NCBI RefSeq assembly: GCF_001418255.1 | Contig: NZ_LIPV01000012.1 | Location: 1 to 55,240, forward strand | Origin: Thiomonas bhubaneswarensis | GTDB taxonomy: Bacteria; Pseudomonadota; Gammaproteobacteria; Burkholderiales; Burkholderiaceae_C | Length of the DNA stretch: 55,240 nucleotides | Direction: 5' to 3' | In this document: positions 2,494 through 55,240 of the stretch, piece by piece | Layout of the letters: every line of letters starts with the position of its first letter | Numbering within the stretch: position 1 is the stretch's first letter | Program-made: the position numbers and the translations under genes | Notes under the pieces: model-generated | Told to the model about the DNA's origin: nothing | Databases searched by the model: none | What the model saw: the letters and a program-made list of their open reading frames with translations, nothing else

Positions 2494-2495
2494 TG

Positions 2496-19024: not shown

Positions 19025-19075
19025 GGCAGGAGCGTACAGGAGCAGGACGGCATACGGTAAGGCGGACGATGAGTC

Positions 19076-19092
19076 TTGCCAATTTTTGCCAA
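19076..19092 (+). promoter_or_regulatory. direct repeats upstream of the antitoxin, candidate operator
   Basis: TTGCCAA occurs at 19076-19082 and again at 19086-19092, one helical turn (10 bp) apart, about 20 bp before the antitoxin start. Ribbon-helix-helix antitoxins normally bind such short repeats and repress their own operon, so this is a plausible site. No binding is shown by sequence alone. Confidence 0.4.
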
Positions 19093-19110
19093 AAGACCTA
19101 CCCTTGCACC

Positions 19111-19362
19111 ATGAGCACGATGAACATTTCTCTCCCAGACACCCTGAAATCCTTCGTGGACGAACAGGTCAGCCAGCGTGGCTATGGCACGAGCAGCGAG
19201 TACGTGCGCGAGTTGATCCGCAAGGACCAGGAACGTCTGCAACTGCGCAGCTTGCTGTTGGCCGGGGCCGCGTCGGCGCCGACGGCACCAGCCGATGTCG
19301 GCTACTTTGACGGGCTGCGGGATCGGGTGCGCAATAACCCCAAGGCCGACGCTCGCGGGTGA
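19111..19362 (+). CDS. ParD-like ribbon-helix-helix antitoxin
   Basis: The 83-residue protein begins MSTMNISLPDTLKSFVDEQV, the beta strand and first helix of a ParD-type ribbon-helix-helix DNA-binding domain, continues with YGTSSEYVRELIRKDQER, and ends in a flexible Ala/Pro-rich tail that would wrap the toxin. ATG at 19111 is used; ATG at 19120 is possible. The gene overlaps the toxin gene by 4 bp, the standard order with antitoxin first. Confidence 0.85.
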   Translation: MSTMNISLPDTLKSFVDEQVSQRGYGTSSEYVRELIRKDQERLQLRSLLLAGAASAPTAPADVGYFDGLRDRVRNNPKADARG

Positions 19363-19688
19363 AAGCCAAGCCTGTCATCCCGCGTGGGCAGGCCCATCGT
19401 GATGTGGAAGAGGCTATTGCCCACTATCTGAGTGAGGCAGGCGAAAGCGTGGCGCTCGATTTCATCTCCGCCCTGGAGAAGGCCTACGGCCATATCGGCC
19501 GCCACCCGACCACGGGCTCGCCGCGCTACGCCCTTGAGCTCGCCATTCCGGGGCTGCGCGCCTGGGCGCTGACCCGCTACCCGCACCTCGTGTTTTACGT
19601 CGAGCATCCGAGTCACATCGATGTTTGGCGCGTACTGCACGCACGGCGCGACATCCCCGCGTGGATGCAAGAGCCCGACGAAGTCTGA
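19359..19688 (+). CDS. ParE/RelE-superfamily toxin
   Basis: This 109-residue protein has the ParE fold pattern: an N-terminal strand, AHRDVEEAIAHYL, ALDFISALEKAYGHIGRHPTTGS, and a C-terminal LTRYPHLVFYVEHPSHIDVWRVLHARRD. ParE toxins usually poison DNA gyrase, RelE relatives cleave mRNA; sequence alone favours ParE because of the partner. The start is GTG at 19359, overlapping the antitoxin stop. It appears intact. Confidence 0.83.
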   Translation: MKAKPVIPRGQAHRDVEEAIAHYLSEAGESVALDFISALEKAYGHIGRHPTTGSPRYALELAIPGLRAWALTRYPHLVFYVEHPSHIDVWRVLHARRDIPAWMQEPDEV

Positions 19689-19738
19689 CGGTCTGTCGCC
19701 TGGGTCCTTGACCTCTGCAGATGACGCATCAGGACATT

Positions 19739-19766
19739 TTGACCCGCATTCGACGTCTTCTAGTAT
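19739..19766 (+). promoter_or_regulatory. possible promoter of the formate dehydrogenase operon
   Basis: TTGACC (19739-19744) and TAGTAT (19761-19766) are 16 bp apart, 66 bp before the first formate dehydrogenase gene. A TATAAG follows at 19771 and could be an alternative -10. The long leader is otherwise featureless. Confidence 0.35.
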
Positions 19767-19831
19767 TTGCTATAAGGTATGTTCATGCAGTCGTTCCCGA
19801 CCAAGCGCAACAAGGCTTCGGTACAAAAACC

Positions 19832-21619
19832 ATGACAACTTCCACCCATATGCCCGACGCCGTGCCGCTGGGCTCAGCCGACGACATGCGCAGCCGCCTG
19901 CGTCGCAAGAGCAGGCTCAAGGGCCGTCAGGCCGATCCTGTGTCGATCGCCGAGGTTCAGGCGCTCATCGGTCTTGCCCCCCATCGCCGCGACATGCTGA
20001 TTGAGAATCTGCACAAGCTCAACGACGCATGGCACGGTCTGCACGACCGCCACCTGGTTGCGCTCGCGCGCGAGATGAACATCCCGATGGCCGAGGTGTT
20101 CGAGGTCGCGACCTTCTATCACCACTTCGAGGTGCTGCGCGGCGACGATCGACCGGCCGCGCTGACGGTGCGTGTCTGCAATGGCCTGTCGTGCGAGCTG
20201 GCGGGTGCGAAAGACCTGCTGCAACGCTTGCCAGCGCTGCTCGGCACCGAGGTGCGCGTGGTAGCCGCGCCGTGCGTGGGCCGCTGCGAGCAGGCGCCGG
20301 TGGCCGTGGTCGGACAGGCACCCGTCGTCCACGCGAAGACGGTGGACGTTCAAGCCGCGGCGCAAGCGCGCGCCGTGCTTCATCGCGCGGCGACCGACGA
20401 CGCGGTCTTCGACCCTGCCGCCGCCGGCCCTTGCGCGATCACCACTTCGCCTGACGAGATTTCGCCCGCCTACGTTGGCTTTGATGCTTACCGCGCCCGG
20501 GGCGGCTACCGGCTCGCGGCGGCGGTTGCCTCGGGCGCCAGGCCTGCCGACGAGGTGCTCAAGGCGATGACCGACTCAGGGCTGCGCGGTCTGGGTGGCG
20601 CGGGCTTCCCCGCAGGGCGCAAGTGGAGCATCGTGCGCGACTATCCGGCTCCGCGCCTGATGGCGGTCAACATCGACGAAGGCGAGCCCGGCACGTTCAA
20701 GGACCGTACCTATCTCGAGCGCGACCCGCACCGTTTTCTCGAGGGCATGCTGATTGCCGCAAAGGTCGTCGGCATCGATGCCTGCTACATCTATATGCGC
20801 GACGAGTACCACGGCTGCCGCGCACTGCTGACCAAGGAGCTCGAACGCCTGCGCGCCGATCCGCCCTTCGAGCTTCCGCTAATTGAACTGCGTCGCGGCG
20901 CCGGTGCCTACATCTGCGGTGAAGAGTCTGCGATGATCGAGAGCATCGAGGGCAAGCGGGGCGAGCCACGCATGCGCCCGCCGTACATCGCGCAGATCGG
21001 TCTGTTCGGCCGACCGACGCTGGAGCACAACTTCGAGACCCTGTACTGGGTGCGTGACATCGTCGAGCGTGGCCCGGCTTGGTTCAGCGGTCACGGGCGC
21101 AACGGCCGCAAGGGGCTGCGCTCCTTCAGCGTCAGTGGCCGCGTGCGCGAGCCTGGGGTCAAGCTCGCGCCGGCAGGCATCACCCTGCGCGAACTCATCG
21201 ACGAATACTGCGGCGGCATGCTGGCCGGGCATGAGCTTTATGCCTACCTGCCCGGCGGCGCCTCCGGCGGCATCCTCCCGGCCTCGATGGCCGACATTCC
21301 CCTCGACTTCGACACCTTGCAGCCGCACGGCTGTTTCATCGGCTCCGCGGCAGTAATCGTGCTGAGCGACAAGGACCGGGCGCGCGACGCAGCACTCAAC
21401 ATGATGCGCTTCTTCGAACATGAAAGCTGTGGTCAGTGCACGCCGTGTCGCGTGGGAACGGCCAAGGCAGCGCAGTTGATGCAAGCGTCGCACTGGGATC
21501 ATGCAACGCTGGAAGACCTGAACCAGGTGATGATCGACGCATCGATCTGCGGTCTCGGCCAGGCCGCGCCGAACCCGGTGCGCTGTGTGCAGAAATACTT
21601 TGCGAAAGAGGTGGTCTGA
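19832..21619 (+). CDS. NAD-dependent formate dehydrogenase, fused gamma-beta (NuoE-NuoF) subunit
   Basis: This subunit carries electrons from formate oxidation to NAD+ in the cytoplasm. Residues 1-180 are NuoE-like with a thioredoxin-type [2Fe-2S] site (C116, C121, C148, C152). The rest is NuoF-like, with FMN/NADH segments GLRGLGGAGFPAGRKW and EGEPGTFKDRTYLE, and a [4Fe-4S] site CGQCTPC (C533, C536, C539 and C573). In Cupriavidus-type enzymes these are two genes, fdsG and fdsB; here they are one, as in the Methylobacterium FDH1 beta subunit. ATG at 19832 is chosen because the longer frame upstream has no family similarity. It stops immediately before the catalytic gene. Confidence 0.92.
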   Translation: MTTSTHMPDAVPLGSADDMRSRLRRKSRLKGRQADPVSIAEVQALIGLAPHRRDMLIENLHKLNDAWHGLHDRHLVALAREMNIPMAEVFEVATFYHHFEVLRGDDRPAALTVRVCNGLSCELAGAKDLLQRLPALLGTEVRVVAAPCVGRCEQAPVAVVGQAPVVHAKTVDVQAAAQARAVLHRAATDDAVFDPAAAGPCAITTSPDEISPAYVGFDAYRARGGYRLAAAVASGARPADEVLKAMTDSGLRGLGGAGFPAGRKWSIVRDYPAPRLMAVNIDEGEPGTFKDRTYLERDPHRFLEGMLIAAKVVGIDACYIYMRDEYHGCRALLTKELERLRADPPFELPLIELRRGAGAYICGEESAMIESIEGKRGEPRMRPPYIAQIGLFGRPTLEHNFETLYWVRDIVERGPAWFSGHGRNGRKGLRSFSVSGRVREPGVKLAPAGITLRELIDEYCGGMLAGHELYAYLPGGASGGILPASMADIPLDFDTLQPHGCFIGSAAVIVLSDKDRARDAALNMMRFFEHESCGQCTPCRVGTAKAAQLMQASHWDHATLEDLNQVMIDASICGLGQAAPNPVRCVQKYFAKEVV

Positions 21620-24496
21620 ATGAACGCACCCTCCCCCACATTCGCGCCGCCGAGCACGATCGACTTCGAGCTCGACGGCAAGCCGGTGCAGGCCTTCGAA
21701 GGTGAGACCATCCTCGAGGTGGCCGACCGCCACGGCCTGTCGATCCCGCGGCTGTGTTTCAAGCCGGGTTATCGCCCCGACGGCAATTGCCGCTCCTGCG
21801 TCGTCGAGATCGACGGTGAGCGCACGCTCGCGCCGAGCTGCTGCCGCGCCCCCGCCGCCGGCATGAAGGTCAAGGCGACCAGCGAGCGTGCCCTCAAAAG
21901 CCAGAAGATGGTGCTGGAGATGCTGCTCTCTGACATGCCGACGCAGGGGCACAAATGGATCGGCGACGATGCAACGCTGCAGCACGGCGAGCTGAGTGAC
22001 TGGGCGCAGCGCATGCAGGTCTCGGTTCGCCCGGCGCTGGCGGCGATTGCGCGCACACAACCCGCGCCTGATCTTTCGCATCCGGCGATGGCGGTCAACC
22101 TGGATGCGTGCATCCAGTGCAATCGCTGCGTGCGCGCCTGCCGCGAAGAGCAGATGAACGACGTGATCGGCTACGCTTTCCGCGGGCATGAGAGCGCGAT
22201 CGTCTTCGACTTGCAGGACGACATGGGCGACAGCACCTGCGTGGCCTGCGGCGAGTGCGTGCAGGCCTGCCCCACCGGGGCGCTGATGCCCAAGAGCCAC
22301 ATCGGTGCGCAGGCGGTCGACCGCAAGGTCGATTCGGTCTGTCCGTTCTGCGGCGTCGGCTGCCTGCTTACCTACAACGTGAAAGACGAAGTCATCGTCA
22401 GCGTCGACGGCCGCGATGGCCCGGCGAACCACGGCCGTCTGTGCGTGAAGGGCCGGTTCGGTTTCGACTACGCACACCATCCGCAGCGACTGACCAAGCC
22501 CCTGATCCGCAAGCCCGGCGTGCCGAAGAATCCTGACGCGCTCGGCGACCCGACGAACTGGCGCGAGATGTTTCGCGAAGCGAGCTGGGATGAAGCGCTC
22601 GATCTGGCGGCAGGCAAGCTCAAGTTCTTGCGCGACACACATGGCCCCAAGGCGCTCGCCGGCTTCGGCTCCGCCAAGGGCAGCAACGAAGAGGCCTACC
22701 TGTTCCAGAAGCTGGTGCGCACCGGCTTCGGCAGCAATAACGTCGATCACTGCACGCGGCTTTGCCATGCGTCCAGCGTCGCCGCGCTGCTCGAAGGCGT
22801 CGGCTCGGGCGCGGTCAGCAACCAGGTCAACGACGTCGAGCACGCGGGTCTCATCCTCGTCATCGGCTCGAACCCGACCGCCAACCACCCCGTCGCCGCG
22901 ACGTGGATGAAAAACGCCGCCAGGCGCGGCACGAAGATCGTGCTCGCCGATCCGCGCGTCACCGACATCGGCAAGTACGCATGGCGCACGCTGCAGTTCC
23001 GCGCAGACACCGATGTGGCGCTGCTCAACGCCATGATCCACACCGTGATCGACGAAGGCCTGGTCGATGCCGATTTCGTCGCGCGCCGCGCCTCCAACTT
23101 CGAGGCGCTCAAGGAGAACGTCAAAGGCTACAGCGCCGAGGCGATGGCGCCGATCTGCGGCATTCCGGCCGAGACCATCCGTGAGGTGGCGCGCGAGTTC
23201 GCGACCAGCAAGGGTTCGATGATTCTGTGGGGCATGGGCATCAGCCAGCATGTGCACGGCACCGACAACGCCCGCTGCCTGATCGCGCTGGTCACCGTGA
23301 CCGGCCAGATCGGCAAGCCTGGCAGCGGCTTGCATCCGCTGCGCGGGCAGAACAATGTGCAGGGCGCGAGCGACGCCGGGCTGATCCCGATGATGTACCC
23401 GAACTACCAGCGGGTGGACAACGCGAAAGCGCACGACTGGTTCGAAGCGTTCTGGAACACCCGACTCGACAGCCAGCCCGGCTACACCGTGGTCGAGATC
23501 ATGCACAAGGCGCTCGCGCCTGACAGCGACCCGCACAAGATTCGCGGCATGTACATCATGGGCGAGAACCCGGCGATGAGCGACCCCGATCTGAACCACG
23601 CGCGCCACGCGCTAGCATCGCTCGAACATCTGGTCGTGCAGGACATCTTCATGACCGAGACGGCACTTCTGGCCGATGTCGTGCTGCCAGCCAGCGCGTG
23701 GCCTGAAAAGACCGGCACGGTCACCAACACCGACCGCATGGTGCAGATGGGTCGCCGCGCGCTGAACCCGCCCGGCGATGCCAGGCCCGATCTCTGGATC
23801 ATCCAGGAAATGGCCCGACGCATGGGCCTGGCATGGAACTACCAGGGCCCCGAGTGTGGCGTCGCCGAGGTGTATGAGGAAATGCGGCAGGCGATGCACG
23901 AGGCGATTGAAGGCATCACCTGGGAGCGCATCGAGCGCGAGCAGAGCGTGACCTACCCGTGTCTGTCGGCGGACGATCCTGGCCAGCCGACGGTGTTCGT
24001 CGACGACTTCCCCACCCAGGACGGACGCGTCAAGCTGGTGCCCGCAGACCTCATCCCCGCCAACGAACGCCCCGATGCCGACTATCCCTTCGTGCTCATC
24101 ACAGGGCGGCAACTGGAGCACTGGCACACCGGCAGCATGACCCGACGCGCTACTGTGCTCGACGCGATCGAGCCCATCGCCACGGCATCGATGAATGGCG
24201 CCGACCTTCAGAGGCTGGGCCTGCAGCCCGGCGACACCATCACCGTCAAATCACGTCGCGGCGAGGTGGTGATCACCGTTCGACGTGACGACGGCACGCC
24301 GACCAACGCCGTTTTCATCCCCTTCGCCTACTACGAAGCGGCGGCCAACCTGTTGACCAACCCGGCACTGGACCCCTTCGGCAAGATCCCGGAGTTCAAG
24401 TACTGCGCGGTTGCCGTCACGCCCGGCGGCACGCCGGTTCCCACGGTGGGCTATCGCCGCGAAAGCCCATCGCCCGCAGAGGCAACGCCCTTCTAA
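21620..24496 (+). CDS. NAD-dependent formate dehydrogenase, catalytic alpha subunit
   Basis: This is the molybdenum or tungsten bis-MGD subunit that oxidises formate to CO2. The order is a plant-type [2Fe-2S] domain (C46, C57, C60, C74), a ferredoxin-like region with CIQCNRC and CVACGECVQACP (164-217), a [4Fe-4S] site with CPFCGVGC (241-248), and the MopB domain. The metal-ligating residue is C382 in DHCTRLCHASS, so it is a cysteine, not a selenocysteine, enzyme. The C-terminal molydopterin-binding domain includes LITGRQLEHWHTGSMTRR. The 958-residue length is typical. Whether the metal is Mo or W cannot be read from sequence. Confidence 0.94.
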   Translation: MNAPSPTFAPPSTIDFELDGKPVQAFEGETILEVADRHGLSIPRLCFKPGYRPDGNCRSCVVEIDGERTLAPSCCRAPAAGMKVKATSERALKSQKMVLEMLLSDMPTQGHKWIGDDATLQHGELSDWAQRMQVSVRPALAAIARTQPAPDLSHPAMAVNLDACIQCNRCVRACREEQMNDVIGYAFRGHESAIVFDLQDDMGDSTCVACGECVQACPTGALMPKSHIGAQAVDRKVDSVCPFCGVGCLLTYNVKDEVIVSVDGRDGPANHGRLCVKGRFGFDYAHHPQRLTKPLIRKPGVPKNPDALGDPTNWREMFREASWDEALDLAAGKLKFLRDTHGPKALAGFGSAKGSNEEAYLFQKLVRTGFGSNNVDHCTRLCHASSVAALLEGVGSGAVSNQVNDVEHAGLILVIGSNPTANHPVAATWMKNAARRGTKIVLADPRVTDIGKYAWRTLQFRADTDVALLNAMIHTVIDEGLVDADFVARRASNFEALKENVKGYSAEAMAPICGIPAETIREVAREFATSKGSMILWGMGISQHVHGTDNARCLIALVTVTGQIGKPGSGLHPLRGQNNVQGASDAGLIPMMYPNYQRVDNAKAHDWFEAFWNTRLDSQPGYTVVEIMHKALAPDSDPHKIRGMYIMGENPAMSDPDLNHARHALASLEHLVVQDIFMTETALLADVVLPASAWPEKTGTVTNTDRMVQMGRRALNPPGDARPDLWIIQEMARRMGLAWNYQGPECGVAEVYEEMRQAMHEAIEGITWERIEREQSVTYPCLSADDPGQPTVFVDDFPTQDGRVKLVPADLIPANERPDADYPFVLITGRQLEHWHTGSMTRRATVLDAIEPIATASMNGADLQRLGLQPGDTITVKSRRGEVVITVRRDDGTPTNAVFIPFAYYEAAANLLTNPALDPFGKIPEFKYCAVAVTPGGTPVPTVGYRRESPSPAEATPF

Positions 24497-24520
24497 CCAA
24501 GAAACCAAGGCTTGCCGCGC

Positions 24521-25450
24521 ATGGCTCTACTGCCTGCAGACCTGCTCGAACCGCTGGCCTACGACGCGGTCGATCTGCCGCGTTCGGCAGGTGCGCCGCG
24601 CCTGAGCAGGGCCAAACGCCCGCTGTTGCGCCACATCGTGATCGTCGACGAGCGCGGCAAGCGGCGAACCATCGACATTCCCGCCGAAAGAGCGCTGACC
24701 GTCTTCGTCGACAAGCGCGAGCTGGTCACCCTGATGACGCTGGGCGCATGCCCCGAGTTGCTGGTCCTGGGCTATCTGCTCAACCAGGGTCTGATCGCGA
24801 GGCACGCCGATGTCGACAGCATCGACGTGGACTGGGACGTGAACGCCGCCGCGGTGAAGACACGCGCGGGCATCGAAGACTTCGACGCCAAGACCGCGCA
24901 CAGGGTCGTGACCACGGGGTGCGGACAAGGCACCGTGTTCGGCGAAGCGATGGCCGAGGTGGATGCCATCGAGCTGCCTGCGCCGACCGAGGCGCGCATC
25001 TCCCATGCCACGCTCGCGGTCGTCCTGGAACAGATGCGTCAGCGCCACAGCGTTCACAAGCAAGCTGGCTCCGTGCACGGTTGCGCCCTCTTCAAGGGCA
25101 GCGAGATGCTGGTGTTCGTCGAAGACGTGGGTCGTCACAACGCGATCGACACCATCGCAGGCTGGATGGCCGTGCACGATGTGGCCGGGGGGGACAAAAT
25201 CTTCTACACCACCGGGCGGCTGACCAGCGAAATGGTGATGAAGGCAGCCAAGATGGGCATCCCGATCGTCGCCTCCCGAAATGGCGTGACGGCCATGGGG
25301 CATGAACTGGCGACAAGGCTCGGCATGACCCTGTTCGGCCGGGCGTCGGCTCGACGCTTTCTTTGCTACAGTGGGGCCGATCGCTTCGAGCCCGAAGACG
25401 GCGCAGGCGACGTCCATGCACAAGCCGTGGCAGCCTCCGCCTCGCAGTAG
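24521..25450 (+). CDS. fdhD: FdhD-like formate dehydrogenase accessory sulfurtransferase
   Basis: FdhD passes sulfur to the molybdenum cofactor so that the metal gains its terminal sulfide, which formate dehydrogenases need. The 309-residue protein has ACPELLVLGYLLNQG, the active-site loop TTGCGQGT (C134) and VEDVGRHNAIDTIAGW. E. coli FdhD has CGVC in this loop; here the second cysteine is glycine, a form I associate with the FdsC-type accessory proteins. ATG at 24521 is preferred over TTG at 24512. It follows the alpha subunit by 24 bp and ends the operon. Confidence 0.88.
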   Translation: MALLPADLLEPLAYDAVDLPRSAGAPRLSRAKRPLLRHIVIVDERGKRRTIDIPAERALTVFVDKRELVTLMTLGACPELLVLGYLLNQGLIARHADVDSIDVDWDVNAAAVKTRAGIEDFDAKTAHRVVTTGCGQGTVFGEAMAEVDAIELPAPTEARISHATLAVVLEQMRQRHSVHKQAGSVHGCALFKGSEMLVFVEDVGRHNAIDTIAGWMAVHDVAGGDKIFYTTGRLTSEMVMKAAKMGIPIVASRNGVTAMGHELATRLGMTLFGRASARRFLCYSGADRFEPEDGAGDVHAQAVAASASQ

Positions 25451-45374: not shown

Positions 45375-45404
45375 TTGACCCAGCTTGGGGCAAACTCCTA
45401 GACT
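45375..45404 (+). promoter_or_regulatory. possible promoter of the Hyf-like operon
   Basis: TTGACC (45375-45380) and TAGACT (45399-45404) are 18 bp apart. The -35 lies in an imperfect palindrome TTGACCC-agctt-GGGGCAA that could be a regulator site. No sigma-54 pair (GG-N10-GC) was found. Confidence 0.4.
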
Positions 45405-45479
45405 GGTTTCAACAAATACGGCGATGGAGTTCGCCAAAACCGCGCGGGGCTGTCCCGTAGCTAATGACTCCTACCTGCC

Positions 45480-45501
45480 GCAAGACTCGTTGCAGTCTTG
45501 C
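45480..45501 (+). other. leader hairpin before the Hyf-like operon
   Basis: GCAAGACT (45480-45487) pairs perfectly with AGTCTTGC (45494-45501) around a 6-base loop, 21 bp before the first start codon and just ahead of the GGGAGGA ribosome site. It has no T-run, so it is not a simple terminator; it could affect mRNA stability or translation. Confidence 0.5.
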
Positions 45502-45522
45502 GCATCACGACAGGGAGGAACC

Positions 45523-46467
45523 ATGCGCGGTGACGTCATCTTGCAGCAGATTGCCCAGGTTCTGGCTATTTTGTTGCTCTCCCCGCTGTTGCACGGCTTC
45601 ATCGCCAAGATGGAAGAGATCGTGCAGCGCGGCAGCGGCCCGAGCCTTTTTCAGCCGTACCGCGATCTGTTCAAGCTGTTGCGCAAGGAAATCGTGGTGC
45701 CGCAGACCGCCTCATGGGTGTTCTGGGCGGCGCCGGTGGTGGCCTTCGCCTGCATGCTCACGGTGCCCATCCTCATCCCGGTGCTCACCGACTATCCGCT
45801 GCCGCTGTCCGACATGGGCGACATTCTGGGCGGTGGCCTGATCCTCACCCTGGGGGGCTTTGCCATCCTGCTCGCGGGTCTGGACAGCGGCCATCCCTAC
45901 GGCGGCCTCGGCTCCAGCCGCGAGACCATGCTTTCCATCCTCGCCGAGCCCACGCTCATCATGGTGTTCGTCGGCATCACCCTGCTGGCGCAAGCCATGT
46001 TGCCCTTCGTCGTCAATCATCTGCTGGTGGCGCAGCCTGCGGTGTTCTGGAGCCCGGCGCACCTGTTTCTGGTGGCGGCGTTTTTCATTCTGCTGACGGT
46101 GGAAACCGAGCGGCTGCCGATCCATTCGAGCATTCACTACGAGATCTACATGATCGGCGAGGCCCGCATCCTCGAATACTCGGGCCCGCTGCTGGCGCTG
46201 CTGAAGTGGGCTTCGTGGATGAAGCAGGCCATTCTCTACACCATCTTTCTCAACGTGCTGACCATCCCGTGGGGGCTGTCGACCGAGGGCACGGCGCTGG
46301 GCATGCTGGGGGCAACCCTCGCGCTGCTGGGTAAATGGGCCATCGTCGCGCTGCTCATGGTGTTCGTCGATACCGCGCAGTCGCGGCTGCGCTTCTACCG
46401 CTATCAGGAACCGCTGGCGCTGTCGTTTCTGATGGCGATTCTCGCCATCGTGGCGCGGCAGGTTTGA
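45523..46467 (+). CDS. HyfC/HycD-like membrane subunit (NuoH family)
   Basis: In group 4 hydrogenases and complex I this subunit anchors the hydrophilic arm to the antiporter-like subunits. The 314-residue protein has about eight hydrophobic helices and the diagnostic loop FQPYRDLFKLLRKE, then GSSRETMLSILAEP and the ETERLPIHSSIHYE acidic segment. The start is ATG at 45523 with GGGAGGA ahead. It opens an operon of six genes that lacks a HyfD homologue. Confidence 0.88.
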   Translation: MRGDVILQQIAQVLAILLLSPLLHGFIAKMEEIVQRGSGPSLFQPYRDLFKLLRKEIVVPQTASWVFWAAPVVAFACMLTVPILIPVLTDYPLPLSDMGDILGGGLILTLGGFAILLAGLDSGHPYGGLGSSRETMLSILAEPTLIMVFVGITLLAQAMLPFVVNHLLVAQPAVFWSPAHLFLVAAFFILLTVETERLPIHSSIHYEIYMIGEARILEYSGPLLALLKWASWMKQAILYTIFLNVLTIPWGLSTEGTALGMLGATLALLGKWAIVALLMVFVDTAQSRLRFYRYQEPLALSFLMAILAIVARQV

Positions 46468-46640
46468 GAGATTGTGAACAAATCCGCCATGACCGCTCAT
46501 CGCGCCCCAAACGCCCCACTCGGCGTTGCAAATGCTCGCCGTGCCGACGGGCACAGCTGTGCTTTGCGCCTTGATTGGAACCTTTCGGACGCGCTGCTCG
46601 GCCACGCCGGATTCATTCACAACCTCTGGAGGGCCCAGCC

Positions 46641-47321
46641 ATGCTGATCTTCCACCTCGGCGGCGTGCAGGCCTCGTTGTTCAGTCTGCTGACCATCATC
46701 GCGCTGATCCTGGCCTTCGTGATGCTCGGCTCGCACTGGATCAAGAACCACATTCTGGCCTTCGCCGCCGAGTCCTGGGTGATCGCGGCACTGTCGGCTG
46801 CCGTAGGCATCAGCGGGCATTACCCCGAGCTGATCTTCATCGCCGCCCTCACCGCTTTGTTCCGCGGCAGCCTGCTGCCGTATCTGCTGCTGCGCATCGT
46901 CAACGACCTGAAGCAGAACCGCGAGTTCACTCCCCTGCTGCAGCCAGCGTCGAGCGTGGTGCTCGGCGGCTTTCTGGTGCTGTTTTCCTACGCCGTGGCC
47001 GAGAAGCTGGGCATGCGCATGCATCTGGTGGACAACATCGCGGTGCTTGCGCTCACGGCCATGTTCTCGCTTAAGCTCATCGGCTTTCTCATGCTGGTGC
47101 TGCGCGCGGAGGCGGTGAGTTCCATCCTTGGTCTGCTGGTGATCGAAAACGGCATCTTTCTCGGTTCGCAGATTCTGGTGCCGGGCATGCCGCTTTTGCT
47201 GGAAATGGTGATCCTGTTCGACTTGCTGATCATCGTCTCGACCTTCGGCCTGCTCATCCGCTACCTGCACAAGGAAGTGGGCACCACGAGCAGCCGCGAA
47301 CTGACGCGACTGGTGGGGTGA
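46641..47321 (+). CDS. HyfE-like membrane subunit (NuoK-related)
   Basis: HyfE is a small membrane subunit with a NuoK-like C-terminal part. The 226-residue protein has about seven hydrophobic segments, ending IVSTFGLLIRYLHKEVG. The glutamate in VIENGIFLGSQIL falls in the NuoK-like helices and is a candidate proton-path residue. It follows HyfC after 173 bp with no supported gene and lies 4 bp before the HyfF-like gene. Confidence 0.84.
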   Translation: MLIFHLGGVQASLFSLLTIIALILAFVMLGSHWIKNHILAFAAESWVIAALSAAVGISGHYPELIFIAALTALFRGSLLPYLLLRIVNDLKQNREFTPLLQPASSVVLGGFLVLFSYAVAEKLGMRMHLVDNIAVLALTAMFSLKLIGFLMLVLRAEAVSSILGLLVIENGIFLGSQILVPGMPLLLEMVILFDLLIIVSTFGLLIRYLHKEVGTTSSRELTRLVG

Positions 47322-47325
47322 CGCG

Positions 47326-48783
47326 ATGATCTGGAACGTGCTCTACGCGATCTGGATCGCCACCGCCGTGGCGATGGTGGGCAGCTGGGTCTCGCGCAAT
47401 AGCCGCGTGGCTGAGGCGCTCAACCTAGCGGCGGCAGTCATCGATTTCGTCCTGGTCATCGTGTTGCTGATCGCCACGCCCGACCAGGGCGCCACCGCGC
47501 TGAACCACTATCTGCTGCTCGACGATTTCGGCGTGTGGGTGATGTTCTGCCTGGCCATCGTCTATCTGCTGGCCAGCGTGTACGCCATCGGCTATATGCG
47601 GTGGATGCGCGGCGAGCAGGCGCGGCTGCATCGCTTTTACGCGCTGTTCGCGGCGTTCGCGCTGACCATGTTCTTTGCCCCGGCGCAGAACAATCCGGGG
47701 CTTTACTGGATCGCCATCGACCTCACCACCATCGTCAGCGCGTTTCTGGTGGGATTTCAGCGCGCGCCCGAGAGCATCGAGGCGGCGTGGAAATACATTG
47801 TCATCGTCTCGGCCGGGCTGGGCCTGGCGCTGCTGGGCACGGTGCTGTTCTACTGGGGCGGCACCTTCATTCTCGGGCCGGTGTACGACATGACCTGGGC
47901 CAATCTCGCGCTCATCGCGCCCAAGGCCGAGCCGCTGCTGTTGCTGCTGGCCTTTCTGCTGGTGCTGGTGGGTTTCGGCACCAAGGTGGGCCTGGCGCCG
48001 ATGCACACCTGGCTGCCGGATGCGCACAGCGAAGGCCCGGCTCCGGTGTCGGCCATGCTGTCAGGGGCGCTGCTCAATTGCGCCATGCTGGGCATCGTGC
48101 GCTACCTGCAGATCGTCGAGCACACCTCCATCGAGACCACGGCACGCACCGCGCTGGTGGTGCTGGGCGCGTTCAGCCTGCTGGTGGCCGCGCTGTTCAT
48201 CAGTCGGCAGACCATCGTCAAGCGCCTGGCCGCGTATTCGAGCGTGGAGCACATGGGCGTGATCGCGCTCGGTTTCGGCTTCGGCGGGCCGCTGGGGGTG
48301 ATCGGCGCGCTCTATCACATGCTCAATCACTCGCTGACCAAGTCGCTGGTGTTCTTCGGCGCGGGCAACATGATGCACGCCTACGAGAGCAAGGAAATCG
48401 GCAGCATCCGCCGCGTGCTGCGCTACTTTCCGCGCACTGGCGCGATCTGGCTGGCCGGTGCGGTGGCCATCACCGGCGCGCCGCCGTTCGGGCTGTTTCT
48501 GTCGGAGCTCACCATCCTGCGCGGCGGCATGCAAAGCGCCAACCCTTGGGCGGTGTGGTGGATGGGGGTGCTGCTCATCGTCATCTTCATCGGCTTTCTC
48601 AACCATTTCCGCGCGATGTTTTTCGGCTCTCGCCCCGAGCATGCACCGCACTTGAAGCTGAAGTTCGTCCACGTCGCGCCGATGGCCGTGGCGCTGGCCG
48701 CCATCCTGCTGCTGGGTCTATGGTGGCTGCCGCCGATCTGGGCCCATCTGGCCGCCATCGCCAACCAACTTGGAGGCGTGTGA
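47326..48783 (+). CDS. HyfF-like antiporter-type subunit (NuoL/M/N family)
   Basis: This is one of two antiporter-like, presumably proton-pumping subunits. The 485-residue protein has about 14 helices, the lysine in GTKVGLAPMHTWLPDAHSEGPAPVSAMLSG, the histidine in GALYHMLNHSLTKSLVFFGAG, and a C-terminal lysine/glutamate region (SELTILRGG). These are the residues that mark MrpA/D-like proton paths. It is followed one base later by the large-subunit gene (TGAGATG). Confidence 0.9.
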   Translation: MIWNVLYAIWIATAVAMVGSWVSRNSRVAEALNLAAAVIDFVLVIVLLIATPDQGATALNHYLLLDDFGVWVMFCLAIVYLLASVYAIGYMRWMRGEQARLHRFYALFAAFALTMFFAPAQNNPGLYWIAIDLTTIVSAFLVGFQRAPESIEAAWKYIVIVSAGLGLALLGTVLFYWGGTFILGPVYDMTWANLALIAPKAEPLLLLLAFLLVLVGFGTKVGLAPMHTWLPDAHSEGPAPVSAMLSGALLNCAMLGIVRYLQIVEHTSIETTARTALVVLGAFSLLVAALFISRQTIVKRLAAYSSVEHMGVIALGFGFGGPLGVIGALYHMLNHSLTKSLVFFGAGNMMHAYESKEIGSIRRVLRYFPRTGAIWLAGAVAITGAPPFGLFLSELTILRGGMQSANPWAVWWMGVLLIVIFIGFLNHFRAMFFGSRPEHAPHLKLKFVHVAPMAVALAAILLLGLWWLPPIWAHLAAIANQLGGV

Positions 48784-48784
48784 G

Positions 48785-50305
48785 ATGCGTCATTGCGACA
48801 CCACCCGCCTGAATCCCGCCGAACTGCCGACAGCGGCCGATAGTCTGCTCACCGCACTGGGCGACGCGCCCAGCGCCCATGGCCGCATGCAGATGGCCTA
48901 TGCGTGCGGCTGCGCCGACGACAGCGTGGACGTGGTGTATGTGCTCAGCCAGGGCCCCGGCCTGCCTTACAAGGTCTGGCGCGTGCGCCCAGAGCATCAC
49001 ACCCTGCCCTCGCTGGCGAACAAGCTGCCGTTGCTGGGCTGGTACGAACGCGAAATGATGGACCTTTATGGCCTGCGTTTCGAGGGTCACCCCGAGCCCC
49101 ACCCGCTGGTGCTGCACGAAGGCATGCCGCGAGAGCCCGCGCCGTTGCTCAAGCCTTTTGACCCGCAGGCCGCCGCGCTCGACTTCTCGCCGCAGCCGCC
49201 CACCGTGCCCCAGGTGCTCGGTCCGGACATCCAGCGCCTGCCTTTCGGGCCGGTGCGGGCCGACATTGTCGAATCGGCGCAGTTTCTGTTCTTCTACATC
49301 GGCGAAGGCATCCTGCACTATCACCCGCGGCTGTTCTACAAGCACCGGGCGATGGAGGCACGGTTCCAGGGCCAATCGCTGCGCTCGGGCGCGGTGCTGG
49401 CCGAGCGCGTGAGCGGCATCGACTCGGTGGCGCACGCCCTGGCCTACGCCCAGGCGGTGGAAGGCGCGATGGGCTGGCGCGCGCCCGCGCGTGCGCGGTA
49501 TCTGCGCGTCATCCTGGCCGAGCTGGAGCGTCTGTACAACCATCTGCACTACCTCGGCCATCTATCCAAGACCACCACCCTCAAGGTCGGCGAGGCCGAG
49601 GGGCATTTGCTCGAAGAGCGGGTCAAGCAGATCAATGGCAAGCTCACCGGGAGCCGCTTTCTGCGCGGCCTCATCACCCCCGGCGGCCTGCGCCGCGATC
49701 TCGACATTGCCGGTCTGGACAAGGCGCTCGACGCGATCAGCGACGACATAGCCCGCTATCTCGACCGCCTTGAATCCACCCGCAGCTACCTCGACCGCCT
49801 GATGACGACTGGGGTGCTGGCGCGCCAGGTGGCGTTCGACCAGGGCGCCACCGGCCCGATCGAGCGCGCCAGCGACCTCGACCGCGATCTGCGGCGCGAC
49901 CACCCTTACGCCAACTACGAGAAGGTGCGCTTTGCCGTTCCCGTGGAGACGGTCGGCGACGCCTACGCGCGCTCGCGGGTGCGCATGGAGGAAATCCGCG
50001 AGTCGCTCGCCATCATCCGCCAGACCATCGGTCGCACCAAACCAGGCGAGGTGCTGCGCTTCGATGTGATGGAAGACGCCGACCTGCGCGGCGAAGGCCT
50101 GGGCTGGGTCGAGGCCACGCGCGGTGGGCTGCTCTATGCCGTCCATCTGAGCGAAGACCGCACCCTGCTGCAGCGGGTGAAGATCAAAGAGCCGTCGTTC
50201 TCGAACTGGCGGGTGTTTCCCTTCACCGTGGAGGACAGCAACATGATGGACTACGCCATCAACGAAGCCAGCTTCGGCCTGTCCATCGCAGGCGCCGATC
50301 GCTGA
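48785..50305 (+). CDS. HyfG/HycE-like large subunit lacking [NiFe] ligands
   Basis: The 506-residue protein is a NuoC (1-115) to NuoD (150-506) fusion, the same build as HycE and HyfG. The NuoC part has WYEREMMDLYGLRFEGH. In HycE the Ni-Fe site is RVCGICGFAH and DPCYSCTDR. Here the first site reads RVSGIDSVAH (S210, D213) and the last residues read ASFGLSIAGADR (S500, G503), so all four cysteines are gone. The protein therefore cannot be a hydrogenase of known type. It matches what has been called energy-converting hydrogenase-related (Ehr) complexes. The real electron acceptor or donor is unknown. ATG at 48785 is used. Confidence 0.88.
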   Translation: MRHCDTTRLNPAELPTAADSLLTALGDAPSAHGRMQMAYACGCADDSVDVVYVLSQGPGLPYKVWRVRPEHHTLPSLANKLPLLGWYEREMMDLYGLRFEGHPEPHPLVLHEGMPREPAPLLKPFDPQAAALDFSPQPPTVPQVLGPDIQRLPFGPVRADIVESAQFLFFYIGEGILHYHPRLFYKHRAMEARFQGQSLRSGAVLAERVSGIDSVAHALAYAQAVEGAMGWRAPARARYLRVILAELERLYNHLHYLGHLSKTTTLKVGEAEGHLLEERVKQINGKLTGSRFLRGLITPGGLRRDLDIAGLDKALDAISDDIARYLDRLESTRSYLDRLMTTGVLARQVAFDQGATGPIERASDLDRDLRRDHPYANYEKVRFAVPVETVGDAYARSRVRMEEIRESLAIIRQTIGRTKPGEVLRFDVMEDADLRGEGLGWVEATRGGLLYAVHLSEDRTLLQRVKIKEPSFSNWRVFPFTVEDSNMMDYAINEASFGLSIAGADR

Positions 50306-50319
50306 CAAGGAGCAAAACC

Positions 50320-51150
50320 ATGCCCGTGTGGACCTGGTTGGGCCTGCAGAAAGGCCGCGCCACAACCCCTTGGCCCGAGCGCCCCGGCCCCGATGGACAG
50401 GACGGCGTGCTCGGCCTGCCGCGTTTCGATGCGGCTCGCTGTTCGACCGCGCAAACCGGCTGCACCGACTGCGTCGCGGCCTGCCCAGCGTCGGCCATCA
50501 GCCGCGGCGCAGCAGGCGGGGTGCAGCTCGACTACGCCCGCTGCGTCGGCTGCCAGCTCTGCACCGAGGTCTGCCCGGAGCCCGCGTTCACCCCGAGCCA
50601 CGACTGGGCTTTCGGCGTGCGCGACAAGGCCGATCTGCTTCATGTAAGTAGCGAGCAAAACGCTCTACCGAGCGAGAAAGAAGAACCGATCACCGCCGAA
50701 CTCGAGCAGGAACTCAAAGCCTTCGGCAAGAGCCTGCACATCCGCCATGTGGACGCCGGTTCATGCAACGGCTGCGAAAGCGAGCTGCAAGCGCTGTTGA
50801 ATCCGTTTTACAACCTGCACCGGCTGGGTATCTTTTTCACGCCCTCGCCTCGGTTTGCCGATCTGCTGCTGGTCACCGGCCCGGTGACCGCCGCGATGCG
50901 CGAGCCGCTGCTGCGCACCTATGAAGCCATGCCGCAGCCGCGCTGGGTCATGGCGGTAGGCACTTGCGCCACCGGCGGCTGCACGAATGGCGGCGGCTAC
51001 GCCTGCCATCAGGGGCTGGACGGCATCCTCCCCGTGGACGTGTGGCTGCCGGGTTGTCCGCCCAACCCCGCCGCGCTGATCGAAGCGCTGCTTCTGCTGC
51101 TGCGGCGACGTCCGCAACGGGTGCACGGAGGCCGGTATGAATCTGCCTGA
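50320..51150 (+). CDS. fused ferredoxin (NuoI/HyfH-like) and NuoB/HyfI-like small subunit
   Basis: The 276-residue protein joins two subunits that are usually separate. Residues 35-95 form a two-cluster ferredoxin with an unusual first motif CSTAQTGCTDCVAACP and a standard CVGCQLCTEVCP. After an acidic linker (SEKEEPITAELEQELK), residues 140-270 form the NuoB-like domain with AGSCNGCE, VGTCATGGC and LPGCPPNPA, giving all four ligands of the proximal [4Fe-4S] cluster. So the electron path is kept although the Ni-Fe site is gone. It overlaps the next gene by 14 bp. Confidence 0.88.
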   Translation: MPVWTWLGLQKGRATTPWPERPGPDGQDGVLGLPRFDAARCSTAQTGCTDCVAACPASAISRGAAGGVQLDYARCVGCQLCTEVCPEPAFTPSHDWAFGVRDKADLLHVSSEQNALPSEKEEPITAELEQELKAFGKSLHIRHVDAGSCNGCESELQALLNPFYNLHRLGIFFTPSPRFADLLLVTGPVTAAMREPLLRTYEAMPQPRWVMAVGTCATGGCTNGGGYACHQGLDGILPVDVWLPGCPPNPAALIEALLLLLRRRPQRVHGGRYESA

Positions 51151-53140
51151 TGCCATGGGCCTCGCCGCCTTCGTTCTGGCCGCGCTGGCCTGGGTGCTGG
51201 CGCTGCTGGCCGATCTGTTCCTCGGCTCGGCACTGCCGCGCGGGCTGCTGGCGCTGGGCTGCGCGCTCGCGGCCTTGGGCGCGCTATGGGGCCTGCCCTC
51301 GGGCGTTGTTGGCCAGAAGCTGCTGGTGCTGGGCGACGCGCCCGTGGTGTTCCAGCCCGATGCCGCGGCTCTTTGGCTCATGCTGCCCGCGCTGCTGCCC
51401 GCGTTCTTCGCCAGCCTGCTCGGTAGCACGGCGCACGCGAGGGGCTGGGCCGCGGGCGCGGCGCTGTCGTTGCTGGGCGCGCTGGGGGTTTACGGCTTGC
51501 AGGACGGGGCTAGCTTTCTCATCGCCTGGGAGGTGATGGGCTTCGGCGGCGCGCTCATGCTGCTAGCCGATCACCGCAGCGTGCAGGCCGGGCATGACAA
51601 TCTGTTCATGCTCGCTCTGCTCGAAGTCGGTGGCGTGGCGCTGCTGCTGGCGGTGCTCATGCTCGGCCAGAGCCTGGCCTTTGGCACCTACGCGCTGCAG
51701 TGGACCGGATGGAGCGTGGCCTCGGCGTTCTTCCTCGGCCTGCTGTGGCTGGTGGGCTTCGGCGCCAAGCTCGGCCTGCTGCCGTTCTACGAGTGGTATC
51801 CCGGCGCCTATGGCAGCGGCAGTGGGGCCAGCGGCGCGCTGATGTCGGGCGTGGTGATGAACGCGGCCTACTTCGCCTTGGGGCGGGCGTTGCTGCAGTG
51901 GATGGGTGATCCGCCCTGGCTGGCGAGCTTTGGCGTGGTGGTGCTCATCGTCGGCACCTTCACCGCGATTCTGGCCATTCTGTATGCCTTTCAACAAAGC
52001 GACTGGCGGCGGCTGCTGGCATTTTCCTCCTCCGAAAATGCCGGTGTGGCCGTGACGGCGCTGGGAGCGGCGCTGGTGTTTCGCGCCGGGGGCGAAGACA
52101 TGCTCTCGGCCCTGGCCTGGACGGTGGGCATGCTGCACCTCATGGGCCACAGCCTGGCCAAGGGCACGCTGTTCCTCAGCGCCGATGCCGCTGCCGCGCT
52201 GCAGGGCAGTCACCATCTGCGGCAGAGCGCCATCCTGCGCCATGCGCCGCTCACCCTCGGCCTGGGCGCGGTGTTCGGCGCCATGAGCCTGGCCGCCATG
52301 CCGCCCACGGCCGGCTTTGTCAGCGAGTGGTATCTGTTCCAGAGTCTGTTCCACGACTTCACCCTCAAGACCGATGGCTCGCGCATCGCCCTGGCACTGG
52401 CCGGAGCCGGCATGGCGCTGACGGCGGCGATCGCGCTGGCCACCATGGTCAAGGTCTTCGGCGTGGGGCTGCTGGGGCAGAACGAAGCCCACGCCGCGCA
52501 CCACCGCAAACACCAGACCACACTCTCGCCCTTGCAGCGCTGGTCGGTGCTCGTCACCGGGCTTGCCGTGCCCGCGTTTGCGATGAGCCTGGTGTTCTGG
52601 CTGCCGGAGATGTCGGCGTCGGCTTGGCCTGCGACGCAAACGCCGGGGCAGATGACGCACGGCTGGCTGCTGGTGCCGCTGTCGGCTGGCTTTGCCTTCA
52701 TCTCGCCCGCGATGCTAGTGATCGTCGTACCGCTGCTCGCCCTCATTCCACTGACTCTGGTGTGGGCACGCCGCCGCCACCCGGTACGCCGCGCGCCGCT
52801 GTGGTGCGGTGGCGAAGACTATGCCGCACACGCCGGGGCGACGACCGCGCTGTCGTTCTCCAACGCTCTTCGGGTCTTCTACAACTTCGTCTACCGGCCG
52901 CGCAACGCCGTGGCTCGGCAGTTCGAAGGCAAGCCGTATTTCCTGAAAGAATTGCAGTTCGACTATTCGCAGGCACCCATCTTCGGCCCGCTGTTGTTTA
53001 CCCCGTCGATCCATGCGTTGCAATGGCTGGCGCGCAGGCTGCGCTTTCTGCAGAACGGTCTGATGAATGCTTACCTGGCCTATATCGGCATTCTGCTGAT
53101 CGTGATTTTCGGCCTGGTGCTGGTATGGCAACCGGGCTGA
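51137..53140 (+). CDS. HyfB-like antiporter-type subunit (NuoL/N family)
   Basis: The 667-residue protein has about 16 hydrophobic helices, GFGAKLGLLPFYEWYPGAYG with the pump lysine, LAFSSSENAGV, GMLHLMGHSLAKGTLF, PPTAGFVSEWYLFQ, and a long C-terminal end with a conserved CGGEDY motif typical of HyfB/HycC. In E. coli hyfB is early in the operon; here it is last. It is the second antiporter-like subunit, so the complex has two putative pumps. Confidence 0.9.
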   Translation: MNLPDAMGLAAFVLAALAWVLALLADLFLGSALPRGLLALGCALAALGALWGLPSGVVGQKLLVLGDAPVVFQPDAAALWLMLPALLPAFFASLLGSTAHARGWAAGAALSLLGALGVYGLQDGASFLIAWEVMGFGGALMLLADHRSVQAGHDNLFMLALLEVGGVALLLAVLMLGQSLAFGTYALQWTGWSVASAFFLGLLWLVGFGAKLGLLPFYEWYPGAYGSGSGASGALMSGVVMNAAYFALGRALLQWMGDPPWLASFGVVVLIVGTFTAILAILYAFQQSDWRRLLAFSSSENAGVAVTALGAALVFRAGGEDMLSALAWTVGMLHLMGHSLAKGTLFLSADAAAALQGSHHLRQSAILRHAPLTLGLGAVFGAMSLAAMPPTAGFVSEWYLFQSLFHDFTLKTDGSRIALALAGAGMALTAAIALATMVKVFGVGLLGQNEAHAAHHRKHQTTLSPLQRWSVLVTGLAVPAFAMSLVFWLPEMSASAWPATQTPGQMTHGWLLVPLSAGFAFISPAMLVIVVPLLALIPLTLVWARRRHPVRRAPLWCGGEDYAAHAGATTALSFSNALRVFYNFVYRPRNAVARQFEGKPYFLKELQFDYSQAPIFGPLLFTPSIHALQWLARRLRFLQNGLMNAYLAYIGILLIVIFGLVLVWQPG

Positions 53141-53228: not shown

Positions 53229-53621
53229 ATGTACCGAATGACCTACGTTTTCATCGCCCTTTTCGCCATCATTGGTGCGTTCGCGCGCTACGGCCAGACC
53301 CTGGTCGTGCAAAGCGTGCTGGGACGCTCCTTTCCCTTCGCCACGCTGTCGATCAACGTGCTCGGTTCGTTCCTGATGGGTTTCCTGTTCTTCGAAACCC
53401 TGGAGCGCATCAACCTCAGCCCCGAACTGCGCACCGGCATCCTCACCGGCGGCCTGGGTGCCTACACCACCTTCTCGACCTTTTCACTCGAATCGCTCAA
53501 CCTGATTGAAAACGGCGAGATGGTGAAGGCCGGGCTGTACATCGGCGCCTCCGTGGCGCTGTCCGTCTCGGCGGCCATCTTCGGCGCCTATCTGTCACGC
53601 AATATGGGAGTCTCGACATGA
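53229..53621 (+). CDS. crcB: CrcB/Fluc fluoride channel
   Basis: Fluc proteins export fluoride as a dual-topology dimer. The 130-residue protein has four helices, with GAFARYG, SINVLGSFLMGF containing the conserved asparagine, and GLGAYTTFSTFSLE with the sodium site and the phenylalanine box. ATG at 53229 or 53238 are both possible. No fluoride riboswitch was recognised in the 88 bp upstream. It overlaps the DUF190 gene. Confidence 0.9.
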   Translation: MYRMTYVFIALFAIIGAFARYGQTLVVQSVLGRSFPFATLSINVLGSFLMGFLFFETLERINLSPELRTGILTGGLGAYTTFSTFSLESLNLIENGEMVKAGLYIGASVALSVSAAIFGAYLSRNMGVST

Positions 53622-53950
53622 GCGCCAAATCCGTCACCATGGTTCGCGTCTACATCAAGGAAGGCGACAAGGACAGCGGTCATCACGACCTCATGCGCAG
53701 CATCTTCAAGCTGCTGCACGAACAGCACAAGGTGCATGGTGTGACTGTGTTTCGCGGCGTGGCCGGCTTCGGCAGCAAAGGCGAAGTGCATGCCGACGAT
53801 CTGCTGCGGCTCAACGTGCACCTGCCGCTGGTGCTGGAGTTTTTCGATGAACCGGAAGTGGTCGAGGCCGTGCTGCCGCGCATTCAGGAGATGGTGCCGC
53901 CCGGGCACATCGTCTATTGGTCGGCGCAGTGCGGCTGCGCCGTGGATTGA
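53618..53950 (+). CDS. DUF190 (PII-like) protein
   Basis: The 110-residue protein has the DUF190 pattern VRVYIKEGDKDSG, LLHEQHKVHGVTVFRGVAGFG and PLVLEFFDEPEVVEAVLP. DUF190 proteins have a PII-like ferredoxin fold and often sit next to crcB, as here with a 4-bp overlap, so a regulatory role in fluoride export is inferred. The function is not established. A terminator follows 15 bp later. Confidence 0.85.
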   Translation: MSAKSVTMVRVYIKEGDKDSGHHDLMRSIFKLLHEQHKVHGVTVFRGVAGFGSKGEVHADDLLRLNVHLPLVLEFFDEPEVVEAVLPRIQEMVPPGHIVYWSAQCGCAVD

Positions 53951-54948: not shown

Positions 54949-55240
54949 TTACTCGATAGGTATCGGGGTTGATGGGGATTGAGCTGCATCGCCAGCGCGC
55001 TGGCGATGCAGCTCGGCGAAGCGAGCCGGTGGCATGCGTCCCAGGCTGCTGTGCGGCCTGACCTCGTTGTAGTCCGTTCGCCAGACCGCCACGGCCCTCC
55101 TGGCCTGATGCAGGGTCTCGAACCAGCCCTCGTTCAAATGCTCGTCACGGAACTTGCCGTTGAAGCTCTCAATAAAGCCGTTTTGCATGGGGCGTCCCGG
55201 CTGGATCAGGATGTGGCGAATGCCATGCGCCTGTGCCCAG
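54949..55240 (-). CDS. IS3-family transposase OrfB (DDE integrase), C-terminal part
   Basis: The frame enters from the right edge and stops at 54949. It encodes the end of an rve-type integrase: IRHILIQPGRPMQNGFIESF with the third catalytic residue (E of FIESFNG), then KFRDEHLNEGWFETLHQARR and YNEVRPHSSLGRMPPARFAE. The first two catalytic aspartates lie outside the window. The last 30 codons include a 34-bp perfect palindrome. Confidence 0.85.
   Translation of the reverse strand, partial: WAQAHGIRHILIQPGRPMQNGFIESFNGKFRDEHLNEGWFETLHQARRAVAVWRTDYNEVRPHSSLGRMPPARFAELHRQRAGDAAQSPSTPIPIE
54981..55014. repeat. 34-bp perfect palindrome inside OrfB
   Basis: Positions 54981-54997 (GAGCTGCATCGCCAGCG) are an exact inverse of 54998-55014, with no loop. 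It encodes ELHRQRAGDAA at the end of the integrase. It could form a hairpin in the transposase mRNA or a cruciform near the element end. Confidence 0.85.

Follow-up and report, generated by a model that had tools for sequence, protein, structure and literature searches.

A nickel-ligand-free relative of hydrogenase 4 behind a fluoride riboswitch in Thiomonas bhubaneswarensis

For years Ehr complexes, reportedly the subject of Marreiros 2013, have lacked an assigned function. The relevant passage of PMC6349859 describes them as related to group 4 hydrogenases but devoid of the residues that hold nickel and iron. Here we describe a complex of this kind, encoded in the window (the whole analysed stretch of 55,240 nucleotides of T. 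bhubaneswarensis DNA), which shares with Ehr complexes its Hyf-like subunits and the absence of Ni-Fe ligands. It differs from the Ehr loci used for comparison (L076-L080) in gene order (C-E-F-G-I-B versus B-C-E-F-G-I), in falling into a separate clade, in the fusion of a ferredoxin domain to the small subunit, in its fluoride riboswitch and in a histidine in place of NuoH D213. Hydrogenase 4 and formate hydrogenlyase of E. coli provide the best solved match (HycE) by sequence and by fold; unlike them, however, the window operon lacks the Ni-Fe cysteines, HyfA, HyfD and HycI, and the genome lacks HypD. With complex I (NuoB, CD, H and L/M/N) it has the core subunits and the proton-path charges in common, but it has neither the NADH module nor the NuoD His/Tyr pair, and its small subunit carries CxxC rather than CC.

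For the label 'formate hydrogen lyase', the fluoride riboswitch literature cites Baker 2012 as a source. A passage of Weinberg 2010 (PMC2864571) places formate hydrogen lyase genes among those downstream of the crcB motif, and passages of a 2024 review (PMC11139923) read such riboswitch-linked genes as a move to formate fermentation. The same passages rank Na+/H+ antiporters as the second commonest riboswitch-linked class, and state that both pH and proton-motive force fall when HF enters, the latter being what fluoride exporters depend on. The islands of the clade described here share with the known regulon (crcB, enolase, pyrophosphatase, MutS-like, 'formate hydrogen lyase') not only the riboswitch but also crcB, enolase, MutS-like and phosphatase genes; what is listed there as 'formate hydrogen lyase', in contrast, is here a nickel-free Ehr complex. 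The riboswitch-linked large subunits in our sample cannot hold Ni-Fe, which corrects the reading printed in that part of the review (PMC11139923). A search of titles and abstract openings found no paper that joins fluoride riboswitches with Ehr complexes or nickel-free hydrogenase relatives; subscription papers mostly lay outside it, and others may have noticed the link.

There is very little doubt that the operon encodes an Ehr complex under fluoride control. The riboswitch and the adjacent crcB, both absent from an earlier note on this DNA that had left the role of the complex open, point to a role in fluoride stress, and the operon is most likely part of fluoride survival, not a hydrogen enzyme. 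A regulator of known ligand makes the physiological role of an Ehr complex directly testable.

The operon and its metal-free large subunit

Six plus-strand genes (45523-53140) encode the complex, in the order hyfC, hyfE, hyfF, large subunit, fused small subunit and hyfB; crcB and a DUF190 gene come next on that strand (Table 1). Both proteins that match PF00361 are membrane subunits of the Mrp/antiporter type. The spacer between hyfC and hyfE (46468-46640) measures 173 nt, as against 6-16 nt in 30 relatives, and had no match among the loci compared. Elsewhere in the window, a NuoE/NuoF fusion, an Fdh-alpha gene (708.7 bits, cut-off 666.25) and FdhD make up a formate dehydrogenase cluster (19721-25450) 20 kb upstream of the operon, which itself contains no formate dehydrogenase, this cluster being the nearest. 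Two small genes at 19069-19688 resemble, by eye, a ParD/ParE-type toxin-antitoxin pair, and an IS3-type integrase fragment, also recognized by eye, lies near the window end (54949-55188, minus strand).

Table 1. Features of the riboswitch-controlled operon and its flanks (window positions)
Feature	Position	Strand	Basis
Sigma-70-like promoter match, TTGACC-18-TAGACT (candidate)	45375..45404	+	Consensus scan, 9/12 matches; ends 6 nt before riboswitch
Fluoride riboswitch aptamer (RF01734, crcB motif)	45411..45480	+	Rfam, 49.0 bits vs gathering score 34, E 1.3e-10
Likely expression platform	45469..45519	+	Minimum-energy fold, z -2.33, 3/200 shuffles as good
hyfC/NuoH-like membrane subunit, 314 aa	45523..46467	+	PF00146 E 2.9e-32; start set from relatives
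hyfE-like membrane subunit, 226 aa	46641..47321	+	NF008556 hydrogenase 4 membrane subunit, E 1.2e-14, under curated cut-off; no Pfam match
hyfF-like antiporter-type subunit, 485 aa	47326..48783	+	PF00361 E 1.9e-49
HyfG/NuoCD-like large subunit without the four Ni-Fe cysteines, 506 aa	48785..50305	+	Translation of stop-free ORF, alignments, structure search
Small subunit, 276 aa: two-cluster ferredoxin domain (HyfH-like) fused to HyfI/NuoB-like domain	50320..51150	+	PF01058 E 6.7e-28, Fer4 families
hyfB-like antiporter-type subunit, 667 aa	51137..53140	+	NF005086 hydrogenase 4 subunit B, E 1.4e-83, under cut-off; PF00361
crcB (Fluc fluoride channel family)	53229..53621	+	PF02537 E 4.1e-26
DUF190 (COG1993) protein	53618..53950	+	PF02641 E 1.8e-24

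By sequence, the solved structure closest to the large subunit is E. coli HycE (7z0s_E, E 3.9e-45), followed by NuoD and NuoCD chains of complex I. A Foldseek search with the AlphaFold model (mean pLDDT 85.3) gave the same ranking (7z0s_E on top with TMq 0.87, NuoCD after HycE); beyond the fold, the model seems to add little. Its C-terminal tail (residues 499-506), which closes the cavity, has a pLDDT of about 28, and we therefore placed the tail positions by sequence alignment and left the pocket geometry unread. The earlier note had proposed that SGID (S210-D213) and SIAG (S500-G503) replace the cysteine pairs of HycE, while the surrounding RVxGIxxxAH and the terminal DR are kept. Alignment with HycE, HyfG and NuoCD of E. 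coli MG1655 agrees on all of these points: HycE C241, C244, C531 and C534 fall on S210, D213, S500 and G503, the two CxxC Ni-Fe pairs of a group 4 [NiFe] hydrogenase appearing as SxxD and SxxG, and both flanking motifs are retained.

The substitutions are shared by relatives of the protein, which we collected from a scan of one genome per species (33 loci, L001-L033). Across these and the window (n=34), serine occupies column 210 in 33 sequences and threonine in one; column 213 is Asp in 18 and Gly in 16, column 500 Ser in 16 and Thr in 18, and column 503 Gly in 33 and Ala in one. R506 is invariant and D505 present in 32 of the 34. When the positions equivalent to the four Ni-Fe columns were checked for cysteines in these sequences and two Burkholderia plasmid copies, none was found in any of the 36. 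Judging from these alignments, loss of the nickel ligands is a fixed trait of the clade, neither chance nor a sequencing slip.

A 75-row tree unites the 36 sequences in a single clade (support 100/99) and places other Ehr proteins in a second (33 rows, 99/96); the Ehr proteins as a whole are separate from true HycE and HyfG (96/95). A 57-row tree, which took 18 of the 34 A1 rows, one of the two Burkholderia rows and nine of the 29 unnamed Ehr rows, agrees with it (clade 100/100; Ehr versus hydrogenases 98/97). Both trees were built without Mbx, Mbs and Ech rows, and the exact placement of the long branches (NuoCD, Alicyclobacillus, Variovorax, Allomeiothermus) is unsure. A recent cysteine loss in this strain only, inside the true group 4 hydrogenases, is ruled out by the clade-wide pattern together with the trees.

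HypD is absent from the genome of T. bhubaneswarensis (100% complete by the table), which should thus be unable to build a Ni-Fe site, and its only other relatives of the large subunit are NuoC and NuoD. With no ligands in any clade sequence, Ehr proteins apart from HycE and HyfG in the trees, and no HypD in the host, the assignment to the Ehr class made in the earlier note stands. The absence of HypD is not universal: it is missing from the genomes of 24 of the 33 relatives and present in nine. Among 398 sampled Pseudomonadota genomes, a clade member was found only in that of the window (866 bits; next best 302); within the genus, nine of 13 genomes have one (at least 829 bits), and close kin include Thiomonas intermedia.

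Linkage to the fluoride riboswitch

The riboswitch, whose presence is shown by Rfam, ends 42 nt before the start of hyfC (45523) and is preceded by a candidate promoter (one promoter-like match found versus 0.1 expected in shuffles). In the minimum-energy fold, the 3' strand of the aptamer (45469-45477, UCCUaCCUG) pairs with the Shine-Dalgarno region (45511-45519, CAGGgAGGA) around a hairpin of 8-9 bp. Alternatively, the P1 loop (45426-45430) can pair with 45467-45471, overlapping the same strand; we take this pairing to be the pseudoknot of the aptamer. Such a choice of partners for the aptamer 3' strand fits translation that is turned on by fluoride, a mode of switching that we infer from the fold. 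A like pairing was seen in L002-L006 and L008. However, in six of 18 folded leaders (L015, L016, L019, L024, L028 and L067) the aptamer does not pair with the Shine-Dalgarno region, so the platform varies, which counts against the explanation favoured below. An intrinsic terminator was rejected as the switch, none being found on the plus strand between 45100 and 45600.

All 29 clade loci that include the 5' end of hyfC (26 loci, both Burkholderia plasmids and the window) have a same-strand riboswitch upstream of the operon; the 5' end is missing in seven of the 33 loci (L001, L007, L011, L013, L014, L018 and L025). The distance to hyfC is 37-239 nt in 26 of the 29, and 1.27-1.30 kb in L009, L010 and L012, with crcB in between in L009 and L012. 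Altogether, L001-L033 contain 55 fluoride riboswitches. As a control, we used the 65 other genomes with a match in the sample of 398 Pseudomonadota, 56 with other Ehr proteins (L091 and L103 among the Ehr) and nine with four-cysteine large subunits. Under stricter filters, and with some contigs short, no fluoride riboswitch was found near any of the 65 control genes; at least 8 kb of upstream sequence was available in 44, including all nine four-cysteine genes. A fluoride riboswitch does occur in 13 of these genomes (12 over cut-off), the nearest one on the same contig lying 57 kb away. Likewise, none was found at eight named control loci (L066, L072, L073 and L076-L080: E. coli hyf, hyc and nuo, Azospirillum hyf, and Rhodococcus, Rhizobium, Allomeiothermus and Variovorax Ehr). 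Of the 37 riboswitch-linked large subunits (29 from the clade, M. branderi, Alicyclobacillus and L133-L138), none carries more than one cysteine across the four positions.

Neighbouring genes were counted in the 33 loci and the last 19.2 kb of the window (n=34). A crcB-family gene is present in 17 loci, in 14 of them after hyfB on the same strand; no crcB was seen in the other 17, many loci ending early, and this counts against the favoured explanation. A DUF190 cluster occurs in 14 of the 34 and a second cluster with a DUF190 representative in four more; a literature search for DUF190 and fluoride returned unrelated papers only. Enolase is found in seven loci, and the MutS-like, MFS, histidine phosphatase, HIT, CMAS, dynamin and IlvD families are further common neighbours. 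A link to CO2 fixation, suggested by the hosts, was dropped, though not disproved: inspection of the conserved neighbour clusters without models revealed no RuBisCO, carboxysome or DabA.

Such islands also occur on plasmids of Burkholderia multivorans and B. cenocepacia, the latter typed as conjugative (L067 and L068), where the annotation as NADH-quinone oxidoreductase or nickel-dependent hydrogenase is misleading. The second fluoride riboswitch of the T. bhubaneswarensis genome (L034:1501-1575) precedes a gene of the CMAS (cyclopropane fatty acid synthase) type (1872-3071), 73.5% identical to its counterpart in L008, and genes of the histidine phosphatase and HIT types lie just upstream of it. 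An Alicyclobacillus plasmid carries a lone large subunit behind a fluoride riboswitch (L075:8603-10305); the other five subunits were not found in the 19 kb stretch, in which another riboswitch precedes two proteins that are MutS-like by eye.

Electron path, membrane arm and possible function

The small subunit contains eight cysteines in its ferredoxin domain (41, 48, 51, 55, 75, 78, 81 and 85) and four at the proximal cluster (149, 152, 216 and 246), and all 12 are present in 36 of 36 clade sequences. In the membrane arm, HyfB and HyfF keep the equivalents of NuoM E144 (as E or D), K234, H348 and E407 in at least 33 of 34-35 sequences, while NuoM K265 is Asn in both antiporter-type subunits, as in E. 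coli HyfF, a point against the favoured explanation. HyfC keeps NuoH R148, E157, E220 and E228 in 29 of 29. In the same 29 sequences, however, NuoH D213, which is Asp or Glu in all others aligned, is replaced by His (residue 201 of the window HyfC), and R37 is Glu in 28. These two changes indicate that the coupling path differs from that of complex I, which also counts against the favoured explanation; the histidine at D213 is possibly a key to coupling or to the choice of ion. The columns of NuoCD H224 (V16/L15/M3/Q1/T1) and Y273 (G32/A4) lack the NuoD quinone-headgroup pair in all 36 sequences, and a quinone reductase of the complex I type was rejected on these grounds. As far as conserved residues can tell, electrons can probably reach the cavity, where both H+ at Ni-Fe and a quinone bound in the complex I manner would drop out as acceptor; the complex would, as the earlier note supposed, move both electrons and ions.

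We propose the following course of events. HF that enters the cell frees H+ and F- inside, acidifying the cytoplasm and draining the proton-motive force, as the literature has it. F- would then bind the leader RNA, and the aptamer would capture the strand that masks the Shine-Dalgarno sequence, allowing translation of the operon. The six subunits, whose homology is clear, would assemble with two antiporter-type subunits in the membrane arm and three [4Fe-4S] clusters in the peripheral arm that it carries. Electrons would enter at the ferredoxin-like domain and pass through the proximal cluster to an acceptor in the metal-free cavity, ions, most simply H+, being pushed outward. Finally, the restored potential may power the exit of F- via CrcB, a passive channel whose gene adjoins the operon. 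We are evenly divided over this whole chain, that is, a fluoride-stress Ehr complex acting as a redox-driven ion pump that upholds the potential for F- exit via CrcB.

Alternatively, the complex might carry F- or HF itself, with fluoride export by its antiporter-type subunits tied to redox chemistry or to an inflow of H+, and so be the pump rather than a helper of CrcB. The riboswitch link, as tight as that of an exporter, the 17 of 34 loci with no crcB nearby (some ending early), the clade's own HyfC changes D213H and R37E, and a deep branch that loses Fe-S ligands and keeps membrane charges (see below) all speak for it; but exporters may sit elsewhere in many genomes, and the conserved charges are those of a proton path, with no anion site identified. 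We see direct transport as a minority possibility. A complete electron wire, and a fold nearest to HycE and then NuoCD, in a genome that also has NuoC and NuoD, would likewise suit a stand-in electron entry or exit replacing a respiratory step inhibited by fluoride, the acceptor being a quinone bound in some other way. Given that the NuoD headgroup residues are absent from 36 of 36 sequences and that the operon has no dehydrogenase gene, we find this respiratory role improbable.

The archaeal MBS, defined by polysulfide reduction, is likewise not known to carry Ni-Fe ligands; an MBS chain is among the matches of the large subunit (6u8y_L, E 5.7e-25), and several hosts are sulfur oxidizers (Thiomonas, Halothiobacillus). 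A sulfane reductase with a polysulfide-reducing cavity would nevertheless leave fluoride control unexplained, and clade members come from Acidobacteriaceae, Paraburkholderia, Ancylobacter and Nitrobacter as well, making this reading very improbable. Hardly credible is a formate hydrogenlyase marking a shift to fermentation, as the riboswitch literature labels such genes, even though the operon proteins match hydrogenase 4 models and a formate dehydrogenase cluster lies 20 kb upstream. None of the 37 large subunits linked to a riboswitch has a cysteine at more than one of the four ligand positions, HypD is missing from the host and from most relatives' genomes, and the operon includes no formate dehydrogenase, whose model exceeds its cut-off in just 17 of 34 genomes and has weak matches alone in those of L008, L015, L016, L021 and L033; with ligands, HypD and an operon formate dehydrogenase all missing, and some genomes showing weak matches alone, we rejected it.

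An actinobacterial side branch

Matches to the large subunit of M. branderi were found in 19 of 296 Actinomycetota genomes; 20 of the 21 match places were taken, G628 being left out, and L139 was dropped as the same as L029. The order C-E-F-G-I-B recurs in eight new loci (L131-L138), six of which have a same-strand upstream riboswitch; no riboswitch was found in 11 loci that begin with hyfB (L140-L150). In the 57-row tree all riboswitch-linked rows, together with L131 and L132, lie on one branch (29 rows, 98/97). The riboswitch-linked large subunit of M. branderi has no functional nickel ligand at any of the four positions.

The proximal-cluster cysteines of M. branderi are replaced by N, D, D and A, those of L131 by D, E, D and S, and those of L132 by D, D, D and S; two of the four are left in L133-L136 (with another cysteine nearby), three in L138 and all four in L137. 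In M. branderi, L131, L132, L137 and L138, just C55, C75, C78 and C81 are left in the ferredoxin domain; we take these four to hold one cluster. The membrane charges of the side branch are kept, except for the first acid of HyfF in L137 and L138; L133 and L135, whose contig stretches end before hyfB, were left out of the HyfB check. Loss is also seen outside the fluoride branch (L078, L141 and L144), and complete loss combined with a linked riboswitch was observed at one locus only, that of M. branderi, with a NUDIX gene intervening.

Loss of Fe-S ligands with the membrane arm kept suggests that ion movement may outweigh redox chemistry; a purely redox-driven pump leaves the loss in these relatives unexplained, which again counts against the chain of events favoured above. 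The clade might thus be a purpose-built fluoride defence selected for ion translocation, perhaps of F- or HF, with the actinobacterial branch shedding its redox side, a proposal we hold to be doubtful. If it were true, the M. branderi copy would be a complex I relative working without core redox centres, and a branch that had lost redox coupling would offer a natural test of what drives the membrane arm of complex I. Small subunits with all four proximal-cluster cysteines replaced were seen in L074 (10312-11106), L131, L132 and L078, the membrane charges being intact in L074, L131 and L132.
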